Below, one piece after another: positions 20,053-56,727 of a stretch of 64,000 nt of DNA (its first letter is position 1; each line of letters starts with the position of its first letter). Source of the stretch: Lacticaseibacillus casei DSM 20011 = JCM 1134 = ATCC 393. GTDB lineage: Bacteria; Bacillota; Bacilli; Lactobacillales; Lactobacillaceae. Under the pieces are notes generated by a model, which was given only the letters and a program-made list of their open reading frames with translations, made no database searches and had not been told where the DNA came from. The stretch spans positions 2,170,001-2,234,000 of the forward strand of contig NZ_AP012544.1 of assembly GCF_000829055.1 (NCBI RefSeq), written 5' to 3'. Both the position numbers and the translations under genes were made by a program.

Positions 20053-21313
20053 CGTAAATTGCAAGAACAAGTTAGCCAGTCGTTGAGGACAATCCCAGAA
20101 CAGGCCGTTATCAAATAGAAGTTGTGGCGCTAGAGAGACTACTGGGCCATGCGGCGAACGCGCCGAGCTTCGGCCTCAAAGTTTTGCTGGGGTGTGCAGT
20201 AGCCCTGTTGTTTGCGAGGCAACTGATTCAAGCGGTCTTGCGTGGCCTGCACTTGACTAGGGCTAATGTCATCTAGGGACATGCCCTTAGGGAAGTCCTG
20301 GCGGATCATCCGGTTATGTGCCTCGTTGGTGCCACGGTCGCAGGACGTGTAAGGATGGGCGTAGAAGATCTCAGTTTCCGTCCCAGCAAAAGCAGTATTT
20401 AAGGCGGTGAACTCGGGTCCGTTGTCGGCTGTGATGGTCTTGATGCAAGCTCCCCATTCGCGCTTGATTCCACGCAATGCATAGCTCACAGAGTCTGCAT
20501 CTCGTCCTTCGATCAAGCGGAGAAGTTGGCAACGGGTCTTGCGCTCAATCAGAGTCAAGATGACGCTCTCCTTGCCATTGCGTTTACCGACAATGGTATC
20601 CGTCTCCCAGTGACCGAACTGCCTGCGTCGTTCAACGACCTTAGGCCGTTCCTCGATACTGCGGCCAGCCAGGCGCTTAGCCTTGGTGTGGTGCTGGTGA
20701 GAGGTCTTCCGCTTAGTCTTCTCCAACAGGTCGATATTTCGAATCTCTAGGCGTTGGTCGTCAATGTACTGGTACAAAGTCGAGGCACAAACAAGCTCTT
20801 CAGGAGTAAACAGCTTGTGCCGCTTGGCATAGCCGATTGAAGCATCCGGCGACCATTTGTCCTGCTTAGCTCGCTGTACGTACCAGGCTAAGAAGACCTG
20901 TACGCTGGCGAACTTGTCAGGACGATGGCAGCTCAAGCGTGCAGTCTCGTAACGTGCCTGAGCAGCCTCTGGCAGGTATTGTCGATGGTAGACGCGCTTG
21001 CCATTACTCTTCTTGACCTGATCTACTGTACCTCGCTTGATTTCATTATTAATGGTCTGCGGGCAGACGCCAATTTCAGCAGCAATCCAACGATTGGACT
21101 TCCCAGCTTGGCGGAATCCGGCCACTTTTCCGCGCTCGAGTGATGTTAAGTGCTGACCTTTTTGGCGGTGTGTGCTATCCTGTTTCTGCATCAAGACAAT
21201 ATCCTCTTCCATTGTTTGTGTAGGAACTTCAATGATACAGGATATCTGTTCTTGATGTTTTTTATTGTCCAAAAAATTTTGAGACAGTGGCTAACTTGAT
21301 TCTAAAATGCGCG
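20053..21313 (-). mobile_element. IS30-family insertion sequence, copy 1 (in the adhesin gene)
   Basis: The element is 1261 bp, the same length as the two other copies in the window. Its ends are imperfect inverted repeats sharing CAAGTTAGCCA starting 16 bases from each tip. It is flanked by 13-bp direct repeats, GAACGGTGAAATA at 20040-20052 and 21314-21326. Removing the element and one repeat restores the adhesin reading frame exactly. Confidence 0.92.
20139..21272 (-). CDS. IS30-family transposase (copy 1)
   Basis: The 377-residue frame starts at a TTG; an internal ATG near 21191 (MQKQDSTHRQKGQH), preceded by GAGGAT, may be the true start. It has the N-terminal helix-turn-helix of IS30 (LTSLERGKVAGFRQAGKSNR, IAAEIGVCPQTINNEIKRG) and a DDE catalytic core with DTIVGKRNGKE, TADNGPEF and GTNEAHNRMIRQ. 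It differs from copy 2 by Arg/His in AGFRQAG and by Thr/Met in HWETDT. It looks intact. Confidence 0.92.
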   Translation of the reverse strand: MDNKKHQEQISCIIEVPTQTMEEDIVLMQKQDSTHRQKGQHLTSLERGKVAGFRQAGKSNRWIAAEIGVCPQTINNEIKRGTVDQVKKSNGKRVYHRQYLPEAAQARYETARLSCHRPDKFASVQVFLAWYVQRAKQDKWSPDASIGYAKRHKLFTPEELVCASTLYQYIDDQRLEIRNIDLLEKTKRKTSHQHHTKAKRLAGRSIEERPKVVERRRQFGHWETDTIVGKRNGKESVILTLIERKTRCQLLRLIEGRDADSVSYALRGIKREWGACIKTITADNGPEFTALNTAFAGTETEIFYAHPYTSCDRGTNEAHNRMIRQDFPKGMSLDDISPSQVQATQDRLNQLPRKQQGYCTPQQNFEAEARRVRRMAQ

Positions 21314-39791: not shown

Positions 39792-39912
39792 CTTGTTCCC
39801 TCCAGTCACGTCCAATATGATACCAAGGTTGTCCATGAATAGCAAGCGTCAGCAAACAAAGACGGCACTAGTGCCATTAATATTTCGTTATTATAAGCAT
39901 CTGAGGTCATTT

Positions 39913-40872
39913 TTAAAAAAGTATCCCCAACCACAACGTCACCAACAACATCCCACCAAAGCTTAGGAGCGAACGAATAGTGAAAATAAAAGTTTTGTCT
40001 TTACTAGGTGAAGTGGTATATGTCCTTGTGTTGTGGAGCACCAGCGGCCATGTCGCCAGTACCAGCAAACTCCAAATCGGCAGGATGCCCGTCACGATGC
40101 CGATTAATAAGGTGACAAAGGTGGTAAACGGAATCAGCCGGTACCAACGCAAGGCGCGCTGTTTCCCGAGGTAATAGGGCAGTGTGTAGCGTTCATTTTT
40201 CACGTCTTGTTCCAGATCGGCGATGTTGTCGGCAAACATGACTGCCGCGTTCAGGATGACAATCGGGAGAACGGCGATGAATAACTGTAACAACCACCCG
40301 AGATTCAGTGAAAACGCAAATGTGCAGCGGCCCAAAGCGAGATCCAAAGGTTGCGGTGCCTGCATGTTGATCAGCACGGCAATCGTGAATGTGCCAAAGC
40401 CTTCGACTAACCCGGCCAGCAATTCGCCAAGTGGGAGCCGGGATAAGGGAATCGGACCAAACGTATATAGAATGGCGATCCCGACACCAATGGCACCGAT
40501 GACCAGAAGGCTGAGATTCGTGCGCATCACAAGAAGCAGGCCGAGAACGACACTCACTAATAGCATCAGAATCGTCAACGCCAACATCCCCCAAGGAGAA
40601 AGATGCTCGCGGCCGATGATATTTTGTTGTTGCTGATAACTATGGTCCTTGGCTTTGAAGTAGTCTTGCACGTTGTTGAAGCCAGTGACAAAAAAAGCAA
40701 TGGCGAGCTGGGCCAGACCATAAAGCAGGCTGTTGACCCAGGAAAATTGTTGAAAAGCCCATGCGGCGTAACTAATACCTAGCGCATACGGCAGCATGCT
40801 CGCTGCTTTTGCCGGTAAGCGAATAAATTCAAGGAACAGTGGCCAGGTTAGGTGTTTGTAAGGTTGCGTCAT
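39913..40872 (-). CDS. UbiA-family prenyltransferase, second copy (DmkA-like)
   Basis: The start is the ATG at 40872 (MTQPYKHLTWPLFLEFIRLP), preceded by GGGGG and overlapping the upstream stop as ATGA. The 319-residue protein has eight to nine membrane segments and both Asp-rich prenyl-diphosphate motifs (NNVQDYFKAKDHSYQQQQN and DNIADLEQDVKNERYTLP). UbiA enzymes attach a polyprenyl chain to an aromatic acid; relatives next door make demethylmenaquinone. It is a diverged tandem duplicate of the gene before it, and both copies keep the catalytic motifs. Its distinct substrate or role is unknown. Confidence 0.85.
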   Translation of the reverse strand: MTQPYKHLTWPLFLEFIRLPAKAASMLPYALGISYAAWAFQQFSWVNSLLYGLAQLAIAFFVTGFNNVQDYFKAKDHSYQQQQNIIGREHLSPWGMLALTILMLLVSVVLGLLLVMRTNLSLLVIGAIGVGIAILYTFGPIPLSRLPLGELLAGLVEGFGTFTIAVLINMQAPQPLDLALGRCTFAFSLNLGWLLQLFIAVLPIVILNAAVMFADNIADLEQDVKNERYTLPYYLGKQRALRWYRLIPFTTFVTLLIGIVTGILPIWSLLVLATWPLVLHNTRTYTTSPSKDKTFIFTIRSLLSFGGMLLVTLWLGILF

Positions 40873-41807
40873 AACAAAACCCCCATTCCCAAGCCGAAGG
40901 TTAATAAACCATTTTCCAAAACCAGGTTCACGACGGCGGTGTGGAACGTTCGCGGCTTGCTTGGGTCGCGAATAAAACGATGGACGTTGCGAATGACCAG
41001 TGGCCACGCCAACTCAATCAGCAATGCCCAGCTCGGCAAAGCGCCAAACACAACTGCTAACAAGACCGCGAGGAAACCGACGTAGGCTAACAAGGCGTAA
41101 ACCCGCGGCGCCCACCAGTGACCCAGGTACATGGGCAACGTATGCCGGTGGTTCCGCTCATCTTCCTCCAAGTCAGCCATGTTGTTGGCTAGCATGACGT
41201 TGGCAATGGTGGCCATTGGCGTAATGCAGGTCAAGCCTAAAGCGATGATGGCAATAAAATCGCCGCGCAAGACAATCGTCGGCCATCCCCAGTCCAGTGC
41301 GATCAATTTTCCAGAGACAATATTAATATAAGTGGCAATCACCGGAATGCCCAAGCCCATCACGACACCGGAAAAAATTTCTCCCAGTGGCAACCGCGAC
41401 AATGGCAACGGCCCCCAAGTATATAAGATGCCGATTGCAAAACAGGCCATCCCCATCAACAACACAAGCCAATCAGTCCGCACAACCAAAATAATTCCAA
41501 GCACCGAGGCGCCTGCCAGCATCCCGATAATGATTCGGCTGACTAACTTCGGATTTAACTTTTCCCGCCCGATTACATTAACAGCTTGCTGGTAGTGTTC
41601 ATCTTTGGCTTTGCGATAATCCATCAAGTTGTTCAGCGCGGTGGTCATCATGTCAAAAAGCAACATCGCCACCAGGAATAACCCCGTGTTCACAGCATTA
41701 AAGCCGTGAAAGTAACTCACTGCAAATAACGTACCAATCGCAAACGGCAAAATGCTTGCCAGCTTCGTGCGAATTTCCACCAATTCCAAGAAAATCGGCA
41801 GCGTCAT
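40869..41807 (-). CDS. dmkA: 1,4-dihydroxy-2-naphthoate polyprenyltransferase (MenA/DmkA)
   Basis: The 312-residue membrane protein begins MTLPIFLELVEIRTKLASIL and has the UbiA Asp-rich motifs NNLMDYRKAKDEHYQQAVNV and NNMADLEEDERNHRHTLPMY. It should join DHNA to a polyprenyl diphosphate, giving demethylmenaquinone, the membrane electron carrier used by the adjacent NADH dehydrogenase. DmkB at 47441, in the same locus, makes the prenyl chain. It is translationally coupled to the second UbiA gene. Confidence 0.88.
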   Translation of the reverse strand: MTLPIFLELVEIRTKLASILPFAIGTLFAVSYFHGFNAVNTGLFLVAMLLFDMMTTALNNLMDYRKAKDEHYQQAVNVIGREKLNPKLVSRIIIGMLAGASVLGIILVVRTDWLVLLMGMACFAIGILYTWGPLPLSRLPLGEIFSGVVMGLGIPVIATYINIVSGKLIALDWGWPTIVLRGDFIAIIALGLTCITPMATIANVMLANNMADLEEDERNHRHTLPMYLGHWWAPRVYALLAYVGFLAVLLAVVFGALPSWALLIELAWPLVIRNVHRFIRDPSKPRTFHTAVVNLVLENGLLTFGLGMGVLL

Positions 41808-41821
41808 CGACTTCCCCCTTT

Positions 41822-41905
41822 AAACGCGCTCGCGTGGCCAGAACCGGAGCCATCACGCCTAAGGCCACTTATACTCCGACTTCTAACCGCGCCAGTTCAC
41901 GCTCT
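41822..41905 (-). repeat. Dispersed intergenic repeat, copy X
   Basis: Read on the minus strand the unit starts AGAGCGTGAACTGG and includes CGGTTAGAAGTCGGAG, ATAAGTGGCCT and GGTTCTGGCC, ending with GCGAGCGCGTTT. The same order of blocks appears at 62156-62276. It lies between fmnB and dmkA and overlaps the last base pairs of fmnB. Confidence 0.75.
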
Positions 41906-42972
41906 ACTTTTTTATAGTCGCCAGCGTGTATCCGGAATTTTTGAACAGTTTGAAACTGTCTTTCAATCCCGAGCTGAGATAAACTTTTTTGTCTTTGGTG
42001 ACAAAAATGGCATCGGCATATTTCAACTTTTCGATATATGCCATCCCATCAACTAGCCCCTTATCAAACGTCGCGGTTGACAGAGCATCGCCATCGACAC
42101 TTTTGTTGGTGACGATCGACACGCCCATCAACTCATTGTCAAATGGGTAGCCTTTTTTGGGATTCATAAGGTGCATATAAACTTTACCATTAACTTTGAG
42201 ATAGCGCTCGTAGATTCCGGAGGTTACAACCGTTTTGTTACTGGCAGGCAAGGTGCCAATGGCCGTCCCCCGTGGCTTTTTCGGATCCTGAATGCCGACA
42301 TTCCAGTCTTTCTTCGCATCCTTGGGGCTCTTGCCCATGACGAAAATATTCCCGCCTAAGTCAATAATAGCCGTGGTAACATGTTGTTTCTTCAGCGTTT
42401 TGACGACTTCATCGGTGATGAACCCTTTCGCGATGCCGCCAAGATCAATGGCCATGCCTTTTTTTCTTCAGGTAAACGGTCTGTTGCTTCTTATTAAGAA
42501 CGACATCTTGGTAATGTACCAACGGCAGCTTGGCATCAATTTCGCTTTGGGCCGGTTTGCGGGCATCGGCAAAGCCAATGTGCCACAGACTGGTGATCGG
42601 CCCAATTGCCAAATCAAACGAGCCATTGGAATTCTCGCTGTAGTGTTTGGCCGCCGCGATCACGCGATAAACACTCGGCGTCACGTGAACCGGCTTGATC
42701 CCGGCGTTTTGGTTAATCTTATCAACTTCCGACCCCTTTTGATTGACCGTCAGCTGATCGGCCAACTGTTGAACCCGGGAAAAAGCAGCATCTAACGCCC
42801 CTTGCTTGCCCTTGTCGTATATTTTAACCGTGACAACCGTACCCATCAAAAACTGGGTATCCGAATAAGGGTCGCCTTCGACCAACGTGCGTTTCGCTGC
42901 AGGCTTGCCGGAACAGGCAGTCGCTACCAATGCCAGCAACATCAGTAAAACGACGACAACTCTTTTCTTCAT
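41904..42972 (-). pseudogene. fmnB: ApbE-type FMN transferase lipoprotein (FmnB), frameshifted in a 7-A run
   Basis: From the ATG at 42972 (MKKRVVVVLLMLLALVATAC) the frame encodes a lipoprotein signal (Cys20) and the N-terminal half of an ApbE protein (DTQFLMGTVVTVKIYDKGKQ), then stops at 42445. The second half (41904-42455) resumes with the core motif MAIDLGGIAKGFITDEVV and ends normally, with DGDALSTATFDKG. The break is a run of seven A residues (42459-42465 on the complement); six would read LKKKGMAIDLGG in one frame of 355 residues. FmnB attaches FMN covalently to lipoproteins such as PplA. The gene could be inactive, phase-variable, rescued by slippage, or mis-sequenced. Confidence 0.9.
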
Positions 42973-43150
42973 CTATATATTCCTCCAAAAGTGAGCGTAA
43001 ACCGGCGCAATCATCCGGCTGCAGAGCCATTATACGGATTTTTGTAGGCATAAGAAAAGAACCTGCTCAGAAGAAGTATTCCGAACAAGTCCTTACTTAA
43101 GCTACTAGACTGACAATCAGCCCAACCGCTTCGATCGTGAAACCAACAAA

Positions 43151-44062
43151 TTAGTTGTTGTAAACAATGTTGTCAACTTCGATCTTGTTCGTGTTGCCAT
43201 TTTGTGCAGCATTGACCAGTTGATCAGCATATAAGATGAAGGTATCGGAACTGTGGGTCGCACCGGAAACCACATCAACCTTGGCTGGTGACTGCTTGGC
43301 AACCAACGACTTATTCAGTTCTGGAATGTATTCCTTCGGGCCGACTTTGTTGACTTTCTTCATATTAGCTTCGTACTTGGTGTCAAGCGTCTTGGACTTG
43401 CCATCTTTATTGACGTTGTCATAGTTACTTTGCGTAATCTTGCCGTCCTTAACGGTGATGGAGAAGGTAACCCGATAGCCATTGAAGTAGTTCTTTTCTT
43501 CAAGGGTGTAGGTCCCGTCTTTCATCTTGCCGGTATTGTTCACTTCAATCGGCTTGGTGTCACCGGCTTGGGCAGCCTGAATCAATTGTTGTGCATAGTT
43601 CTTAAAGGTCAGGCTGGAATCAGTCGCACCTGAGATGACATCAATTGCCCCAACGTTTGTTCCGTTCTTCTGGAACGACTTGTTCAACTCAGGAATATAT
43701 TCTTTTGGCCCAACTTTGACCTTGGACTTCATTGACTTTTCATAAGCAGCGTCCTTGGTCTTGGATTTACCATTCTTGTCAACGTAGTCATACTTAGTAG
43801 AAGTAATCTTCCCGTCTTTGACTGTCATGGCCATTTCGACTTTATAGCCATGGTCATAGCCGGTTTCATTCAGCTTGTAAGTACCATCCTTCAGCGGACC
43901 GCCGGCAACTTGCTTTTGGGCTGATGACTTCTTCACCACTTTGCTGCTGGAAGCCTTACTGCTGGACGAATTTTTGCTGCTTGAACTACTGCTGCATGCA
44001 CTTAAAACCAAAGTGGACAGTGCAACAACGGCTGTCCCCGTCACAACTTTACTTAACTTCAT
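43151..44062 (-). CDS. pplA: Flavinylated extracellular electron transfer lipoprotein PplA
   Basis: The 303-residue protein has a lipobox (VLSAC, Cys23), a Ser/Lys linker and two FMN-binding domains. Each domain carries the flavinylation motif: DVISGATDSSLTFK and DVVSGATHSSDTFI, with FMN expected on the Thr of SGAT. The two domains also repeat KVGPKEYIPELNKS. PplA passes electrons from membrane quinol to external acceptors in Listeria and L. plantarum. It is divergent from ndh2 and upstream of fmnB, the enzyme that loads its flavins. Confidence 0.93.
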   Translation of the reverse strand: MKLSKVVTGTAVVALSTLVLSACSSSSSSKNSSSSKASSSKVVKKSSAQKQVAGGPLKDGTYKLNETGYDHGYKVEMAMTVKDGKITSTKYDYVDKNGKSKTKDAAYEKSMKSKVKVGPKEYIPELNKSFQKNGTNVGAIDVISGATDSSLTFKNYAQQLIQAAQAGDTKPIEVNNTGKMKDGTYTLEEKNYFNGYRVTFSITVKDGKITQSNYDNVNKDGKSKTLDTKYEANMKKVNKVGPKEYIPELNKSLVAKQSPAKVDVVSGATHSSDTFILYADQLVNAAQNGNTNKIEVDNIVYNN

Positions 44063-44168
44063 GACATTTACCCCTTTTGCAGTTCATTACTGTGATATTG
44101 TGTTCTCAATCACATATTTAGTTTAGCCAGTCAAGTCAAAAAAATCAACTAAACTCAGGTATTATAAG

Positions 44169-44203
44169 CGCTTTCTCATTTTCTTAGATTTGTTTCGAAA
44201 GCG
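44169..44203. promoter_or_regulatory. Inverted repeat in the pplA-ndh2 divergent region
   Basis: CGCTTTC (44169-44175) and GAAAGCG (44197-44203) form 7-bp arms separated by 21 bases. The second arm looks like half of a catabolite-response element (GAAAGCG). The regulator is unknown. Confidence 0.35.
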
Positions 44204-44261
44204 TATTTTTGTGTCTTTTTACACAAAAATGTCCGGATTTGGAAAAAGAGAGCTAGAACGT

Positions 44262-44291
44262 TAGACATTAAGCGAAATTAAAGGCTATAAT
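44262..44291 (+). promoter_or_regulatory. Promoter of ndh2
   Basis: TAGACA (44262-44267), an 18-base spacer and a perfect TATAAT (44286-44291), 58 bases before the start. Confidence 0.65.
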
Positions 44292-44349
44292 GACTTGGAT
44301 ACATACTTCACAAAAGTATGGATATTGCAAATGGTAAGGAGTGTTATGC

Positions 44350-46248
44350 ATGGCGAAAACCAATATCGTCGTGGTTGGCGCGGGGTTTGCTGGGGTTTAT
44401 GCGACAAAGCACCTGGCCAAGCACTACAAACGCAACAAAGACGTGACGATCACGCTGATCGATCGCCACTCGTACTTCACTTATGTCACCGAACTGCACG
44501 AAATCGCAGCGGATCGTGTTCCGGAAGATGCGATTCAATACGATTTGCAGCGTTTATTCAATCGACGTAAGAACGTCAAGATTGTCACCGATAACGTGAC
44601 AGGTATTGACCGCGACAAGAAGGAAGTGGTTACGGAAAACGGTCGCTTCCCTTACGACTATGTGATCTTGGGGATCGGATCACAACCAAATGATTTCGGA
44701 ACACCAGGCGTTGCCGAACACGGTTTCACTTTGGGTAAGTGGGAAGACGCGATTCGGTTGAAACGCCACATTGAAGACGTTGTGCGGCGTGGTTCCGAAG
44801 AACACGATCCGGCTAAGCGCAAAGCTCTTTTGTCAATCGTCATTGTCGGTTCCGGCTTTACCGGTACCGAAACGATTGGCGAGTTGCGTGACTGGCGCGA
44901 TACCCTCGCCAAACAGTACAAGCTAGATCCGAACGAAATCCAGTTTAGCCTGATGGAAATGGCGCCGACGATCATGAATATGCTGGATCGTTCAGACGCG
45001 AACAAAGCCGAACGTTACATGGAAAAACGCGGCATCAAGGTCATGAAGAATACCGGCGTTGTCGGCGTTCATGAAGACCATGTCGATCTGAAAGACGGCT
45101 CCACTTTCCCAACCTGCACGCTGGTTTGGACAGCAGGGGTCAAGGCAACGGATCAAGCCAAAGACTTTGGCTTGAAACAAGGACGCGCTGGCCGAATCCT
45201 GGTTAAGAACAACATGGAATCGCAAGACGATCCAAGTATTTACGTTGTTGGTGATGTCTCACTGGTTGATCAAGACGGCACTGGCCGCGGCCAACCGCAA
45301 ATCGTTCAAGGGGCCGAAGCAACCGCGCATACTGCCTTGACGAACATTGAAGCCAAGCTGGAAAACAAGGAACAGATTGAATATAAAGCCAACTATTCTG
45401 GCTTCATGGTCAGCTTGGGTTCCAAATATGGTGTTGCCAACATTATGGGCTGGCTGCATCTCTCCGGTTTCTTTGCGATGTTGATGAAGCACTTAGTCAA
45501 CATGCTCTACTTCATCCAAATTTATTCCGGTTATTATTTATTCCAATACTTCATGCACGAATTCTTCCGGACCCGCAACGAACGTAATATGTTCCGCGGC
45601 CATCTTTCCCGTCAAGGCAACGTACTATGGACGGTGCCTGCCCGGCTCACGTTAGGCGCGATGTGGCTGATCGATTGCTGGCCGAAGATTCAAGGCAAGG
45701 AGTCATGGTTCATTGATAAGCTGCGCCTGCCATTTAGTTGGCTGCAGCCAGCCGCAACCAGCGGTGCTTCTGCCGCCGGTGCCGATGCTACCAGTGCCGC
45801 TTCCGGTGCGGCAGCCGGCGCGGCCAAGGCCACCAAGACTGTCTTTTCACTTTCCTATCAGTATGGGAATGATCCGATGATGGTCTTTGATAAGATGCCG
45901 AACTGGTATTACAGCATTACCAAGACCTTGATTCCTAACCAGCAAGTGGCGTTCTTCATGCAAAAAGCAATGACGATCATGGAAATCCTGATTGGCCTCG
46001 CTTTGATCGCAGGCTTGTTCACTTGGTTAACCTCGGCAGCCACCATTGCTTTTGTCGGCGTGTTCTGCCTGAGTGGCATGTTCTACTGGGTCAACATTTG
46101 GATGATTCCGATGGCCTTTGCCTGCATGAACGGCTCCGGCCGCGCGTTCGGGCTTGATAAATGGGTTGTCCCTTATCTCCAGAAAGTCTTTGGCAAATGG
46201 CGCTATGGAACACCGCAATCACTTTACGGTACCGATGCACTCAAATAA
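44350..46248 (+). CDS. ndh2: Type II NADH dehydrogenase of the extracellular electron transfer locus (Ndh2)
   Basis: The ATG at 44350 (MAKTNIVVVGAGFAGVYATK) follows AAGGAG. The 632-residue protein has the FAD dinucleotide fold at the N-terminus, a second one for NADH (SIVIVGSGFTGTETIGELRD), and the block IYVVGDVSLVDQDGTGRGQP. It then has about 200 extra C-terminal residues with several membrane segments and an Ala/Gly/Ser linker (near residues 475-495). This long membrane tail is a hallmark of the FLEET Ndh2. It oxidises NADH and reduces demethylmenaquinone. An extra terminator follows, so eetA may have its own promoter. Confidence 0.93.
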   Translation: MAKTNIVVVGAGFAGVYATKHLAKHYKRNKDVTITLIDRHSYFTYVTELHEIAADRVPEDAIQYDLQRLFNRRKNVKIVTDNVTGIDRDKKEVVTENGRFPYDYVILGIGSQPNDFGTPGVAEHGFTLGKWEDAIRLKRHIEDVVRRGSEEHDPAKRKALLSIVIVGSGFTGTETIGELRDWRDTLAKQYKLDPNEIQFSLMEMAPTIMNMLDRSDANKAERYMEKRGIKVMKNTGVVGVHEDHVDLKDGSTFPTCTLVWTAGVKATDQAKDFGLKQGRAGRILVKNNMESQDDPSIYVVGDVSLVDQDGTGRGQPQIVQGAEATAHTALTNIEAKLENKEQIEYKANYSGFMVSLGSKYGVANIMGWLHLSGFFAMLMKHLVNMLYFIQIYSGYYLFQYFMHEFFRTRNERNMFRGHLSRQGNVLWTVPARLTLGAMWLIDCWPKIQGKESWFIDKLRLPFSWLQPAATSGASAAGADATSAASGAAAGAAKATKTVFSLSYQYGNDPMMVFDKMPNWYYSITKTLIPNQQVAFFMQKAMTIMEILIGLALIAGLFTWLTSAATIAFVGVFCLSGMFYWVNIWMIPMAFACMNGSGRAFGLDKWVVPYLQKVFGKWRYGTPQSLYGTDALK

Positions 46249-46278
46249 TTGTCACGATAACGCGTTTACCGGCGCAGA

Positions 46279-46312
46279 AGACTCTGGGTGGATTTTGCCT
46301 AGAGTCTTTTTT
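46279..46312 (+). terminator. Terminator after ndh2
   Basis: AGACTCT (46279-46285) pairs with AGAGTCT (46301-46307), followed by a T run. Confidence 0.7.
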
Positions 46313-46434
46313 CAAGAGCGGGAAGCTGCTGCGGCCATGTTCTGTGGCGCAACTGCTCCCCGTCCTTGACGTTCACGTCCATCTTTTCATTGACCGATGC
46401 GAACAATTGATTTTTGTTAGATTGGAGCTTGACT

Positions 46435-46881
46435 ATGAAACGGCCGAATACGTTCAAACGCTATCTTAAAATGATTCGCCCTTTTGACTGGATCATTGTC
46501 GGCGGCCTGTTTCTTGCAGCCTTCATCCCCTACCTCATCTTTGGCATTCAGGAAAATCAGCAGCAACAAGAAGCCTCGCAGCGCGTTTTAACAGCCGTGG
46601 TCACTCATGATGGCCATGAGGTTTATCGAAAAAGGTTAACCGGCCACACCGGCACGACCCAATTCACTTATCGGGCCAAAGACGGTGACTGGAATAAGAT
46701 CGAAGTTCAAGGCGCCGGCATTGCGATTACCGAAGCTAACTGTCAGGATCAGGTTTGCGTCCGCCGCGGCCGAATCACCAAACCCGGACAAACCATTGTC
46801 TGCCTGCCGCACAAGTTGTTGATTGAAATCAAATCCAACAAAGGCGGCAGTAACAACACGGGAGGTATGGTGACCGAATGA
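46435..46881 (+). CDS. eetA: EetA, NusG-domain-II-containing membrane protein
   Basis: The ATG at 46435 (MKRPNTFKRYLKMIRPFDWI) follows TTGGAG. The 148-residue protein has one N-terminal membrane helix (IIVGGLFLAAFIPYLIFGI) and an outside NusG-II domain with the signature ANCQDQVCVRRGRI and QTIVCLPHKL. EetA is required for extracellular electron transfer in Listeria; its exact step is not settled. It overlaps eetB as ATGA. Confidence 0.9.
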   Translation: MKRPNTFKRYLKMIRPFDWIIVGGLFLAAFIPYLIFGIQENQQQQEASQRVLTAVVTHDGHEVYRKRLTGHTGTTQFTYRAKDGDWNKIEVQGAGIAITEANCQDQVCVRRGRITKPGQTIVCLPHKLLIEIKSNKGGSNNTGGMVTE

Positions 46882-47444
46882 GCATTTATAAAGCCGACCG
46901 CACCCGGCAATATATTTATATTGCCTTGCTCTGTGCCCAAGGCGTCATTATCGGCTTACTGGAGCGCATGATTCCCTTCCCGCTTGCGTTTGCGCCCGGT
47001 GCCAAACTAGGCTTAGCCAACCTCATCACCATCATCTCACTGTTCACGATGTCCATTTCGGATAGCTTCGTCTTGCTGTGGCTGCGCCTTTTACTCACCA
47101 CTTTGCTAGGCGGAACCCTGTCAACGTTCTTGTACAGCGGGGCCGGGGCACTCCTGTCTTGGCTGGGGATGCTGCTCATCAAACAACTGGGTGAAAAACG
47201 CGTCAGCATGATCGGCATCTCGGCCGCGGGTGGCATTTTGCACAATGTCGGCCAGCTGCTGGTGGCATCGTTGATCGCCCAAAGCTGGACGGTGATGCTC
47301 TACCTGCCGATCCTGGCATTTATGGGCATTCTCGCCGGCATCGCAGTCGGCATTGCGGCTAATTTCCTTTTTGAACACATTGATATCTTACGTCGCCTGC
47401 GCTACGACCGAAGCAAGCGACGTAAAAAAGGAGCGACTTCATGA
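46878..47444 (+). CDS. eetB: EetB, Gx-transporter family membrane protein
   Basis: The 188-residue hydrophobic protein reads FPLAFAPGAKLGLANLITII and ISAAGGILHNVGQLLVASLI, which are Gx-transporter (heptaprenyl diphosphate synthase component I) blocks. It has five to six membrane segments and a basic tail. It overlaps both neighbours by four bases (ATGA), so eetA-eetB-dmkB form a tightly coupled operon. Confidence 0.9.
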   Translation: MSIYKADRTRQYIYIALLCAQGVIIGLLERMIPFPLAFAPGAKLGLANLITIISLFTMSISDSFVLLWLRLLLTTLLGGTLSTFLYSGAGALLSWLGMLLIKQLGEKRVSMIGISAAGGILHNVGQLLVASLIAQSWTVMLYLPILAFMGILAGIAVGIAANFLFEHIDILRRLRYDRSKRRKKGATS

Positions 47445-48418
47445 AAATTCATCCCATGTGGCATGAATACCCGACGTTGGCGCCTGAATTATCCTCAGCA
47501 CTAACGTTAATTGAAAAACAGATTACCACCAACAATACGCCAGTGGCTGAAGCTATCCTGGAAATGATCAACGGCGGCGGCAAGCTGTTGCGTCCAGCCT
47601 ATTGTCTGCTCTTTTCGCGTTTTCAGGATACGGATCGGGAGAAAATGATCGCCTTGGCAGCAGCGATCGAGACCTTGCACACGGCAACGCTTATTCACGA
47701 TGACATCATCGACAAATCGCCAACCCGCCGAAACCAGATCACGATTCAAAAACAATTTGGCCCGGAAACCGCGGTTTATGCCGGCGACTATCTCTTCGTA
47801 GTCTGCTTCAAGCTCCTGGCCCATTACGCCTCCAGCCTCCGCAGCATTCAACAAGACAGCGGTAGCATGGAGAAGATTCTCAAAGGCGAACTGGACCAAA
47901 TGGCCACCCGCTACCAAACCGACATCACCATTGATGACTACCTCAAACAGGTTTCCGGCAAGACCGGTCAGCTTTTTGCCTTAAGCTGCTTTGTCGGGGC
48001 CTACGAAAGCGGCGGTAGTACCAACTTCGCCAAAGCTGCCGAAAAAATCGGCATGGACATCGGCATTGCCTTTCAATTGCTCGATGACATCCTCGACTAC
48101 ACAAGCAGCGGCGACACCCTTGGCAAGCCGGTTTGCGAGGACGTCCGCAGCGGGGTGTATTCTGCTCCGTTAATTCTAGCCATGCAGCGCGATCGCCAAG
48201 CCTTTTTGCCGTTGTTGGCCAAAAAGGACCAAATCGCCGATGCGGAAATGGATACGCTCCGCAATTTGGTCATCCAATATGAAGGTGTCAAGCAAGCCTA
48301 TGCCATGGCCCGACAACATACCGATCAAGCCATCGCCGGTTTAAAGAAGTTGCCGGCCGGACCGGCGCAGGATGATCTGATCCGCTTGACAGGAAGCTTG
48401 CTGAACCGGAAAGCTTAG
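47441..48418 (+). CDS. dmkB: Trans-polyprenyl diphosphate synthase (DmkB)
   Basis: The 325-residue protein has the first Asp-rich motif in LIHDDIIDKSPTRRNQI, the second in FQLLDDILDYTSSGDTLGKP, and the substrate block GGGKLLRPAYCLL. It elongates farnesyl diphosphate to the long chain that DmkA attaches to DHNA. It is the last gene of the eetA-eetB-dmkB operon, followed by a strong terminator. Confidence 0.93.
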   Translation: MKIHPMWHEYPTLAPELSSALTLIEKQITTNNTPVAEAILEMINGGGKLLRPAYCLLFSRFQDTDREKMIALAAAIETLHTATLIHDDIIDKSPTRRNQITIQKQFGPETAVYAGDYLFVVCFKLLAHYASSLRSIQQDSGSMEKILKGELDQMATRYQTDITIDDYLKQVSGKTGQLFALSCFVGAYESGGSTNFAKAAEKIGMDIGIAFQLLDDILDYTSSGDTLGKPVCEDVRSGVYSAPLILAMQRDRQAFLPLLAKKDQIADAEMDTLRNLVIQYEGVKQAYAMARQHTDQAIAGLKKLPAGPAQDDLIRLTGSLLNRKA

Positions 48419-48445
48419 ACATGTTTGATTGAACGCAAAAAAAGA

Positions 48446-48505
48446 AAACCCACGGTACTTTCTCACCATGCCAATTGGCAGATGAGGAAGCGCTGTGGGT
48501 TTTTG
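48446..48505 (+). terminator. Terminator of the eetA-eetB-dmkB operon
   Basis: AAAACCCACGG pairs with the CTGTGGGTTTTT arm about 35 bases later; a T tract follows. The rest of the gap to 48646 shows nothing recognisable. Confidence 0.75.
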
Positions 48506-48646
48506 TTCGAAGCTTCGATCAATCTACTAGTAAGATTGTAACCGGTTAGAACGTTAGGCAATTGGTAACGCAGAGGTAGGCTATCAGGTAGAATTTCGTT
48601 TAGCTAGCAAAGCTTAAGAGACTAACAGCTTTTTCCATGGGAACAT

Positions 48647-48865
48647 TTAAGGCCACAGACCCAAGATTTGACCGATGCCGCTTATGACACAAACAATTCC
48701 TAGACTAATAAGACCAAGCCTCCGTTGTTTGATCATCTCCGGGCGTCTCCGATACTTTAACCAAGCTGCGTCAATAACCCCGAGAATGGTAAACACAATC
48801 ACCATAATTAAGGTGAAAAGGACAATTCTGACGGCGAGGGTAAGTTCATTAGTTTCTTCCTCCAT
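48647..48865 (-). CDS. Small two-helix membrane protein of unknown function
   Basis: The 72-residue frame begins MEEETNELTLAVRIVLFTLI. It has two membrane helices (IVLFTLIMVIVFTILGVI and LGLISLGIVCVISGIGQILG) separated by a strongly basic loop (KYRRRPEMIKQRRLG). No clear ribosome site precedes the ATG and the IS30 copy 2 begins only 68 bases upstream, so its promoter may have been removed or replaced. I do not recognise the family. Small two-helix proteins of this kind are often immunity or regulatory proteins, but nothing here proves it. Confidence 0.6.
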   Translation of the reverse strand: MEEETNELTLAVRIVLFTLIMVIVFTILGVIDAAWLKYRRRPEMIKQRRLGLISLGIVCVISGIGQILGLWP

Positions 48866-48933
48866 GCAAGGCTTAACGTCTCTACAAGTAGGCTACTACA
48901 TGAACTGCAAGAATAGCCAAGTTAAAAATTAAT

Positions 48934-50194
48934 CGCGCATTTTAGAATCAAGTTAGCCACTGTCTCAAAATTTTTTGGACAATAAAAAACATCAAGAACA
49001 GATATCCTGTATCATTGAAGTTCCTACACAAACAATGGAAGAGGATATTGTCTTGATGCAGAAACAGGATAGCACACACCGCCAAAAAGGTCAGCACTTA
49101 ACATCACTCGAGCGCGGAAAAGTGGCCGGATTCCACCAAGCTGGGAAGTCCAATCGTTGGATTGCTGCTGAAATTGGCGTCTGCCCGCAGACCATTAATA
49201 ATGAAATCAAGCGAGGTACAGTAGATCAGGTCAAGAAGAGTAATGGCAAGCGCGTCTACCATCGACAATACCTGCCAGAGGCTGCTCAGGCACGTTACGA
49301 GACTGCACGCTTGAGCTGCCATCGTCCTGACAAGTTCGCCAGCGTACAGGTCTTCTTAGCCTGGTACGTACAGCGAGCTAAGCAGGACAAATGGTCGCCG
49401 GATGCTTCAATCGGCTATGCCAAGCGACACAAGCTGTTTACTCCTGAAGAGCTTGTTTGTGCCTCGACTTTGTACCAGTACATTGACGACCAACGCCTAG
49501 AGATTCGAAATATCGACCTGTTGGAGAAGACTAAGCGGAAGACCTCTCACCAGCACCACACCAAGGCTAAGCGCCTGGCTGGCCGCAGTATCGAGGAACG
49601 GCCTAAGGTCGTTGAACGACGCAGGCAGTTCGGTCACTGGGAGATGGATACCATTGTCGGTAAACGCAATGGCAAGGAGAGCGTCATCTTGACTCTGATT
49701 GAGCGCAAGACCCGTTGCCAACTTCTCCGCTTGATCGAAGGACGAGATGCAGACTCTGTGAGCTATGCATTGCGTGGAATCAAGCGCGAATGGGGAGCTT
49801 GCATCAAGACCATCACAGCCGACAACGGACCCGAGTTCACCGCCTTAAATACTGCTTTTGCTGGGACGGAAACTGAGATCTTCTACGCCCATCCTTACAC
49901 GTCCTGCGACCGTGGCACCAACGAGGCACATAACCGGATGATCCGCCAGGACTTCCCTAAGGGCATGTCCCTAGATGACATTAGCCCTAGTCAAGTGCAG
50001 GCCACGCAAGACCGCTTGAATCAGTTGCCTCGCAAACAACAGGGCTACTGCACACCCCAGCAAAACTTTGAGGCCGAAGCTCGGCGCGTTCGCCGCATGG
50101 CCCAGTAGTCTCTCTAGCGCCACAACTTCTATTTGATAACGGCCTGTTCTGGGATTGTCCTCAACGACTGGCTAACTTGTTCTTGCAATTTACG
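48934..50194 (+). mobile_element. IS30-family insertion sequence, copy 2
   Basis: The 1261-bp element has the same tips as copy 1 (CGCGCATTTTAGAATC on the left; complement of CGTAAATTGCAAGAAC on the right). Unlike copy 1 it has no matching direct repeat: the 13 bases outside are GTTAAAAATTAAT on the left and GTTAACGTTGCTT on the right. Confidence 0.92.
48975..50108 (+). CDS. IS30-family transposase (copy 2)
   Basis: The 377-residue frame is nearly identical to copy 1, with His in AGFHQAG and Met in HWEMDT. The DDE residues (DTIVG, TADNG, GTNEAHN) are intact. Confidence 0.92.
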   Translation: MDNKKHQEQISCIIEVPTQTMEEDIVLMQKQDSTHRQKGQHLTSLERGKVAGFHQAGKSNRWIAAEIGVCPQTINNEIKRGTVDQVKKSNGKRVYHRQYLPEAAQARYETARLSCHRPDKFASVQVFLAWYVQRAKQDKWSPDASIGYAKRHKLFTPEELVCASTLYQYIDDQRLEIRNIDLLEKTKRKTSHQHHTKAKRLAGRSIEERPKVVERRRQFGHWEMDTIVGKRNGKESVILTLIERKTRCQLLRLIEGRDADSVSYALRGIKREWGACIKTITADNGPEFTALNTAFAGTETEIFYAHPYTSCDRGTNEAHNRMIRQDFPKGMSLDDISPSQVQATQDRLNQLPRKQQGYCTPQQNFEAEARRVRRMAQ

Positions 50195-50275
50195 GTTAAC
50201 GTTGCTTATGTGCCATAAAACGTTTGTTATTCTACTCAGTACATTTGATGTTCTTTATACCAGCAATCGCAGATC

Positions 50276-50340
50276 AAAAAAGCACACAGGCTTATACCTA
50301 TACTGAATTACTGCGATATAGGGATAAGACTGTGTACTTC
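50276..50340 (-). terminator. Terminator after the 40-residue membrane protein gene
   Basis: On the minus strand a long stem (AAGTACACAGTCTTATCCCTA against TAGGTATAAGCCTGTGTGCTT, with one or two mismatches) is followed by six T residues. Confidence 0.75.
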
Positions 50341-50358
50341 TTATGAATATAAAATCGT

Positions 50359-50481
50359 TTACTTAAAAATTACCCGTAACAAATCTTGGATAATTGGTAA
50401 AGTTATCAAGCCAACAACAATACCGCCTAGGAAAAGCGAAATATAAACAGCCGTCTTATTGGTTGATCTCTTGTTTTTCAT
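50359..50481 (-). CDS. 40-residue single-helix membrane protein
   Basis: A short frame with an excellent site (GGAGGAGGAAG just before the ATG) encodes MKNKRSTNKTAVYISLFLGG and a second stretch IVVGLITLPIIQDLLRVIFK. That is a basic tail, one membrane helix and a short amphipathic end. The good ribosome site and the terminator after it argue for a real gene. It sits beside the IS30 copy in a region holding a broken export module. The family is not recognised; a peptide or a small toxin-like protein is possible. Confidence 0.6.
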   Translation of the reverse strand: MKNKRSTNKTAVYISLFLGGIVVGLITLPIIQDLLRVIFK

Positions 50482-50583
50482 TCTTCCTCCTCCAACACAG
50501 TAGACACCCCAGACATCCAAAGATCTTGCTTGTTATTGTCAGTCTAACAATTGCATTTCATTTAAACATTCAGTTATAGAAGC

Positions 50584-50632
50584 AAAAAGCAAGGCATCTC
50601 AGCCTTCAAGAAGCTGCATGCCTTGCTTTTAT
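50584..50632 (-). terminator. Terminator after the F420-reductase-like gene
   Basis: AAAAGCAAGGCAT pairs with ATGCCTTGCTTTT, a perfect 13-bp stem flanked by A/T tracts. Confidence 0.85.
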
Positions 50633-55424: not shown

Positions 55425-56685
55425 CGTAAATTGCAAGAACAAGTTAGCCAGTCGTTGAGGACAATCCCAGAACAGGCCGTTATCAAATAGAAGTTGTGGC
55501 GCTAGAGAGACTACTGGGCCATGCGGCGAACGCGCCGAGCTTCGGCCTCAAAGTTTTGCTGGGGTGTGCAGTAGCCCTGTTGTTTGCGAGGCAACTGATT
55601 CAAGCGGTCTTGCGTGGCCTGCACTTGACTAGGGCTAATGTCATCTAGGGACATGCCCTTAGGGAAGTCCTGGCGAATCATCCGGTTATGTGCCTCGTTG
55701 GTGCCACGGTCGCAGGACGTGTAAGGATGGGCGTAGAAGATCTCAGTTTCCGTCCCAGCAAAAGCAGTATTTAAGGCGGTGAACTCGGGTCCGTTGTCGG
55801 CTGTGATGGTCTTGATGCAAGCTCCCCATTCGCGCTTGATTCCACGCAATGCATAGCTCACAGAGTCTGCATCTCGTCCTTCGATCAAGCGGAGAAGTTG
55901 GCAACGGGTCTTGCGCTCAATCAGAGTCAAGATGACGCTCTCCTTGCCATTGCGTTTACCGACAATGGTATCCATCTCCCAGTGACCGAACTGCCTGCGT
56001 CGTTCAACGACCTTAGGCCGTTCCTCGATACTGCGGCCAGCCAGGCGCTTAGCCTTGGTGTGGTGCTGGTGAGAGGTCTTCCGCTTAGTCTTCTCCAACA
56101 GGTCGATATTTCGAATCTCTAGGCGTTGGTCGTCAATGTACTGGTACAAAGTCGAGGCACAAACAAGCTCTTCAGGAGTAAACAGCTTGTGTCGCTTGGC
56201 ATAGCCGATTGAAGCATCCGGCGACCATTTGTCCTGCTTAGCTCGCTGTACGTACCAGGCTAAGAAGACCTGTACGCTGGCGAACTTGTCAGGACGATGA
56301 CAGCTCAAGCGTGCAGTCTCGTAACGTGCCTGAGCAGCCTCTGGCAGGTATTGTCGATGGTAGACGCGCTTGCCATTACTCTTCTTGACCTGATCTACTG
56401 TACCTCGCTTCATTTCATTATTAATGGTCTGCGGGCAGACGCCAATTTCAGCAGCAATCCAACGATTGGACTTCCCAGCTTGGCGGAATCCGGCCACTTT
56501 TCCGCGCTCGAGTGATGTTAAGTGCTGACCTTTTTGGCGGTGTGTGCTATCCTGTTTCTGCATCAAGACAATATCCTCTTCCATTGTTTGTGTAGGAACT
56601 TCAATGATACAGGATATCTGTTCTTGATGTTTTTTATTGTCCAAAAAATTTTGAGACAGTGGCTAACTTGATTCTAAAATGCGCG
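55425..56685 (-). mobile_element. IS30-family insertion sequence, copy 3
   Basis: The 1261-bp element is in the opposite orientation to copy 2. The flanks (AAAATATTTTTTA on the left, ATCTCATTTTCTG on the right) are not direct repeats. The left side cuts the SpoIIM-like gene; its missing 5' end is not found on the right side. Confidence 0.92.
55511..56644 (-). CDS. IS30-family transposase (copy 3)
   Basis: The 377-residue frame is nearly identical to the other two (Met in NNEMKRG and in HWEMDT) and keeps DTIVG, TADNG and GTNEAHN. It appears intact. Confidence 0.92.
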   Translation of the reverse strand: MDNKKHQEQISCIIEVPTQTMEEDIVLMQKQDSTHRQKGQHLTSLERGKVAGFRQAGKSNRWIAAEIGVCPQTINNEMKRGTVDQVKKSNGKRVYHRQYLPEAAQARYETARLSCHRPDKFASVQVFLAWYVQRAKQDKWSPDASIGYAKRHKLFTPEELVCASTLYQYIDDQRLEIRNIDLLEKTKRKTSHQHHTKAKRLAGRSIEERPKVVERRRQFGHWEMDTIVGKRNGKESVILTLIERKTRCQLLRLIEGRDADSVSYALRGIKREWGACIKTITADNGPEFTALNTAFAGTETEIFYAHPYTSCDRGTNEAHNRMIRQDFPKGMSLDDISPSQVQATQDRLNQLPRKQQGYCTPQQNFEAEARRVRRMAQ

Positions 56686-56727
56686 ATCTCATTTTCTGTC
56701 CTTTTCCTTGGCATGATTTTTCTTTAT

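Follow-up and report, generated by a model that had tools for sequence, protein, structure and literature searches.

The electron-transfer block

The window, a stretch of 64,000 nucleotides that spans bases 2170001-2234000 of contig 1 of the cheese bacterium Lacticaseibacillus casei ATCC 393 (presumably the type strain of the species), contains a block of eight genes comprising two UbiA-type prenyltransferases, fmnB, pplA, ndh2, eetA, eetB, and a polyprenyl synthetase. The minus strand carries a second UbiA-family prenyltransferase gene (39913-41007), whose true start probably lies inside the ORF, an intact dmkA-type 1,4-dihydroxy-2-naphthoate polyprenyltransferase gene (40869-41807), fmnB (41904-42972), and an intact pplA (43151-44062), which encodes two FMN_bind domains and scores over the cut-off of the NCBIfam PplA model. 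On the plus strand, profile searches identified intact genes for an ndh2-type NADH dehydrogenase (44341-46248), an eetA-type protein with NusG domain II (46414-46881), an eetB-type protein of the Hpre_diP_synt_I family (46878-47444), and the polyprenyl synthetase (47441-48418). The dmkA-, ndh2-, eetA-, and eetB-type genes were named by domain and by their place within the described flavin-based electron-transfer (FLEET) locus, and an fmnA gene of the ECF-T type was not seen within the block. A first-pass annotation of the window had described the locus as PplA together with other electron-transfer genes, which is borne out, and fmnB occupies the position beside pplA that is expected of an FmnB gene.

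Among three genomes tested at the flanks of the block, G028 is the nearest to ATCC 393, with an identity of 95% (vs 90% and 77-82% for the others). The match of G028 to the window ends at 39847, after which other ORFs follow. The window region 39848-50600 is absent from this genome (contigs C60 and C59), in which the flanks are about 93-95% identical but lie on two different contigs, the empty site not being seen on one contig. A search of the whole G028 genome returned no fmnB, and from the rest of the block it returned only scraps of 32-34 bp.

The split fmnB gene

The fmnB gene of ATCC 393 consists of two ORFs on the minus strand that lie in different frames. The ORF list contains an N-terminal ORF of 175 aa (42445-42972), matching positions 1-121 of the Pfam ApbE profile, and a C-terminal ORF of 183 aa (41904-42455), matching positions 124-266, so that both ORFs together cover the profile over its whole length. 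Their out-of-frame overlap is at seven consecutive A on the coding strand (42459-42465; seven T on the plus strand), the longest homopolymer of fmnB and its sole run of at least seven. The first-pass annotation was thus correct in placing the gene in two frames and the break in an A run, and ATCC 393 lacks the single open frame expected for FmnB. Runs of seven are in themselves common in this genome, with 52 A7 and 48 T7 runs in one 400-kb stretch.

Both halves match Listeria FmnB of the FLEET locus (PDB 7ESA) end to end, with E values of 4.9e-69 and 7.6e-54. The Listeria protein has the active-site residues and the place beside pplA in common with that of L. casei but is not split into two frames. 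Residue numbers of Listeria FmnB, as given in PMC8906456, were mapped through the 7ESA alignments with a deduced offset of 20. By this numbering, the equivalents of M49, S126, and D128 are found in the N-terminal ORF and those of D184, K190, S257, R262, H273, D301, and T305 in the C-terminal ORF; the catalytic triad (S257, H273, and D301) is complete, as expected for FmnB, and lies wholly in the latter. A signal sequence and a lipobox-like Cys were read by eye in the N-terminal ORF, and the C-terminal ORF is without a signal sequence. Since the signal and the catalytic triad are on different halves, neither product should work alone. The internal ATG of the C-terminal ORF overlaps the first stop, and the sole AAAGG-like stretch is located one base before it; re-initiation there is possible, judging from the sequence. 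A split enzyme assembled from two chains is unlikely, the C-terminal chain having no export signal. Listeria FmnB is described as indispensable for the flavinylation of PplA and is also needed for extracellular electron transfer (EET), which in an fmnB deletion is not rescued by internal flavin supply, as stated in PMC9973259.

Selection on fmnB and its state in other genomes

In comparison with L. chiayiensis, dN/dS is 0.017 for the N-terminal and 0.037 for the C-terminal part of fmnB, and the remaining seven block genes range from 0.013 to 0.088. Purifying selection on both halves is strong, and neither of them was found to contain a second lesion. Because of the low dN/dS in both halves and the lack of a second lesion, the break is recent or is an error, and the selection data fit both. 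An old pseudogene is ruled out by the same observations, and a recent break would not yet show such marks. In the same comparison, dS is 0.75 for the C-terminal and 0.31 for the N-terminal half, and the divergence within and just beyond fmnB peaks at 41701-42100, away from the break. An intergenic repeat of about 56 bp (41850-41905) is situated at the 3' end of fmnB; its copies account for most of the 52 matches in a search of the ATCC 393 genome, and many copies are also present in L. chiayiensis, G016, G019, and G028.

The state of the gene was further compared across 102 fmnB loci with the L. chiayiensis protein. This set is non-random, as it consists of the best 80 of 95 loci retrieved via peptide patterns of the C-terminal half, 21 loci of the same genus, and the window itself. 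The same-genus search gave matches in 23 of 30 genomes, G028 matching solely through the repeat beside the gene. An unsplit fmnB was found at 99 of the 102 loci, or in 92 of 94 distinct genomes after the removal of eight duplicates, and the three split loci are ATCC 393 and two records of one L. camelliae draft (84% completeness, 6% contamination). In L. camelliae, the gene is broken in a different seven-A run about twenty codons further on. At the seven-A site of ATCC 393, every other aligned row, all of them from other species, is in frame; neither on and off states of the same slippery run in close relatives nor, in the alignment and the 102 loci, a conserved two-frame arrangement was found. 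A scan of viral contigs for the fmnB junction gave no matches.

Frameshift load of the ATCC 393 genome

Frameshifts were surveyed in two 400-kb stretches of the ATCC 393 genome. Proteins of G019 matched 199 and 196 genes, of which six and four were split; one candidate (offset 120834) was removed because the difference lies before the start codon, which leaves 9 of 395. Proteins of G016, applied to the first stretch, matched 195 genes, five of them split, and contributed one new lesion, making ten lesions in all from both query genomes. In the reverse searches, split genes numbered 1 of 199 and 1 of 198 in G019 and 1 of 199 in G016, and the comparison of G019 with G016 gave 1 of 191 and 2 of 195. 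The difference between ATCC 393 (9/395) and G019 in the reverse search (2/397) corresponds to a Fisher p value of 0.037, the control lesions in G019 and G016 not having been trimmed by inspection, unlike the ATCC 393 count.

Six of the ten lesions, including that of fmnB, concern a single base, and the other four measure 2, 20, 28, and 52 bp. When the alignments were inspected by eye, only the fmnB lesion was located in a run of at least seven, and a general homopolymer fault of the assembly is not seen. ATCC 393 thus has an excess of frameshifts that is not homopolymer-specific. The longer lesions are hard to explain as base-calling errors, so that gene decay in ATCC 393 is real. The single-base lesions, fmnB included, could be errors.

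Other ApbE genes

Apart from fmnB, two further genes of the ATCC 393 genome match the Pfam ApbE profile. Copy 2 (C1:794770-795846) is an intact gene with a signal sequence, and dN/dS values of 0.014-0.034 against three genomes show that it is constrained. At the positions of FmnB S257, R262, H273, D301, and T305, it carries A, Q, Y, D, and N. In a search of 201 genomes of the family, 105 had a match, and the best-scoring 30 loci, a sample biased to the copy-2 type, were examined: 24 of them read A-[Q/K/H]-Y-D-N and six read S-R-H-D-T. From these residues, copy 2 belongs to a conserved lactobacillar ApbE subclass in which catalytic residues are altered and D301 is kept, and its chemistry may be changed accordingly.

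Copy 3 (C1:1901304-1901939 and upstream) is of the cytosolic type, has no signal sequence, and is split because 2 bp are missing from a short GC repeat, outside any homopolymer; its counterparts in L. chiayiensis, G016, G019, and G028 match positions 2-266 of the profile with no stops. At a threshold of E <= 0.001, the only FMN_bind domains in ATCC 393 are the two of PplA, and G028 yielded no FMN_bind protein and no pplA. Copies 2 and 3 are both kept in G028, and because they persist there without PplA, their distribution suggests that they act on other substrates.

Origin and consequences of the break

On balance, it is probable that a real and recent slippage mutation inactivated fmnB and left PplA without FMN. 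We infer here that the extra base is real, that it originated by replication slippage, and what phenotype follows. Slippage in the longest A run of the gene would have recently inactivated fmnB in ATCC 393, after which translation would yield a potentially exportable N-terminal fragment devoid of the catalytic triad. A C-terminal fragment, if re-initiated at the internal ATG, would be made without an export signal. PplA is then predicted to be without covalent FMN and PplA-dependent EET to be off in ATCC 393. As background to such a loss, frameshifts are generally in excess in ATCC 393, another ApbE gene is broken as well, and G028, the nearest of the genomes compared, lacks the locus entirely. 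What speaks against it is that selection bears no mark of decay, that the six single-base lesions could be errors of 5.9-fold Sanger sequencing, and that the intact copy 2 might load PplA.

An error in the deposited run length, the fmnB of the strain being normal, is less probable, though it is the most serious competitor of a real inactivation. It would account for two constrained halves with no second lesion, and it fits the excess of single-base differences (six in ATCC 393 vs two lesions of all types taken together when G019 was searched in reverse). The genome report (PMC3792948) describes Sanger reads only, at 5.9-fold coverage, for a chromosome of 2,924,929 bp and two plasmids and claims an error rate that is only bounded at 1 in 10,000. 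The same report states that low-quality regions were re-sequenced, and the genome contains no 454 reads, by which a 454 homopolymer error is ruled out as the cause; also, only one of ten lesions lies in a run of at least seven, which argues against an error peculiar to homopolymers. It is improbable that the break is real and copy 2 flavinylates PplA in place of FmnB, a situation compatible with a real inactivation of fmnB itself. Copy 2 has the signal sequence and the constraint for such a role, and replacement of the active-site His in Vibrio cholerae ApbE is described as weakening the activity without abolishing it (PMC12052999). On the other hand, four of the FmnB residues (S257, R262, H273, and T305) are replaced in copy 2, and G028 possesses copy 2 without pplA or any FMN_bind protein. 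Compensation by copy 3 was rejected, since copy 3 is itself frameshifted.

Slightly less probable again is that FmnB output is set by slippage at the run, either because run-length variants coexist or because a +1 ribosomal slip gives little enzyme; if true, a single slippery run would tune both flavinylation at the surface and the export of electrons. As regards the first possibility, a run whose reversible changes in length turn FmnB on or off among the cells of a population is very unlikely. The break is located exactly in the longest run of the gene, and L. camelliae likewise has its fmnB broken in a seven-A run, but at another place and in a draft that is 84% complete. Moreover, runs of this length are common in the genome, the other aligned genomes all read in frame across the site, and seven residues are few in comparison with known contingency loci. 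Marginally less probable still is a rescue in which some full-length FmnB arises through a +1 slip of the ribosome or through slippage of RNA polymerase. Tamas et al. (2008) reportedly found endosymbiont genes that are frameshifted at poly(A) tracts and rescued by polymerase slippage. The likeness to fmnB consists in a frameshift within an A run of a constrained gene, whereas the L. casei run is only seven long and its genome has about 48% G+C. In the zero frame, the site reads AAA AAA AGG C. A pause at AGG, the rarest Arg codon in ATCC 393 (265 of 186,075 codons), could allow tRNA-Lys to shift its pairing forward by one base; the slip would lead into the frame of the C-terminal half, and both halves are constrained. 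Against rescue, the overlapping arrangement occurs in ATCC 393 only among the genomes aligned, in many genomes selection against A/T runs is reported to show from a length of nine (PMC1088944), and the RNA polymerase of E. coli is described as seldom deleting within runs (PMC5574713).

Among the options listed in the first-pass annotation, loss of function is consequently the best supported, and phase variation and recoding are without positive evidence. The suggestion that the whole pathway could be switched by the run found no support, all other aligned genomes being in frame there. The fmnB frameshift is of an ordinary sort: most probably the strain lost the function recently, an error is possible, and the frameshift is not the sign of a new kind of switch.

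Significance and relation to other lactic acid bacteria

If the inactivation is real, ATCC 393 would be a natural fmnB mutant in which the other block genes are intact and would thus provide a ready control for the contribution of covalent FMN on PplA in lactobacilli. A literature search, with most subscription journals outside its scope, returned no account of EET or fmnB in this strain, which one abstract calls a commercial probiotic strain. In a tBLASTx survey, the FLEET locus of Lacticaseibacillus was scored as complete, and Fe3+ reduction was reported there for isolates of L. rhamnosus (GG) and L. casei (BL23) (PMC8837199). Completeness scored by BLAST hits, as in that survey, can hide dead genes, and PMC3792948 places the L. 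casei strain tested in it, BL23, with L. paracasei.

Strain-level damage to the locus has a counterpart in another lactic acid bacterium, since PMC8837199 reports that two L. plantarum strains (NCIMB700965 and 8.1) have IS30 elements between ndh2 and pplA and show no Fe3+ reduction. L. casei ATCC 393 differs in having a frameshift in fmnB and an IS30 element only outside the block. The window contains three copies of the IS30 type (20053-21313, 48934-50194, and 55425-56687) that share about 1.26 kb of identical sequence, and one of them is situated just past the end of the electron-transfer block. In L. chiayiensis (contig C25, 26646-28241), an insertion of about 1.6 kb separates eetB from the polyprenyl synthetase gene, and in G019 (L271 10225-12399), some 2.2 kb that do not match the window lie between fmnB and pplA.
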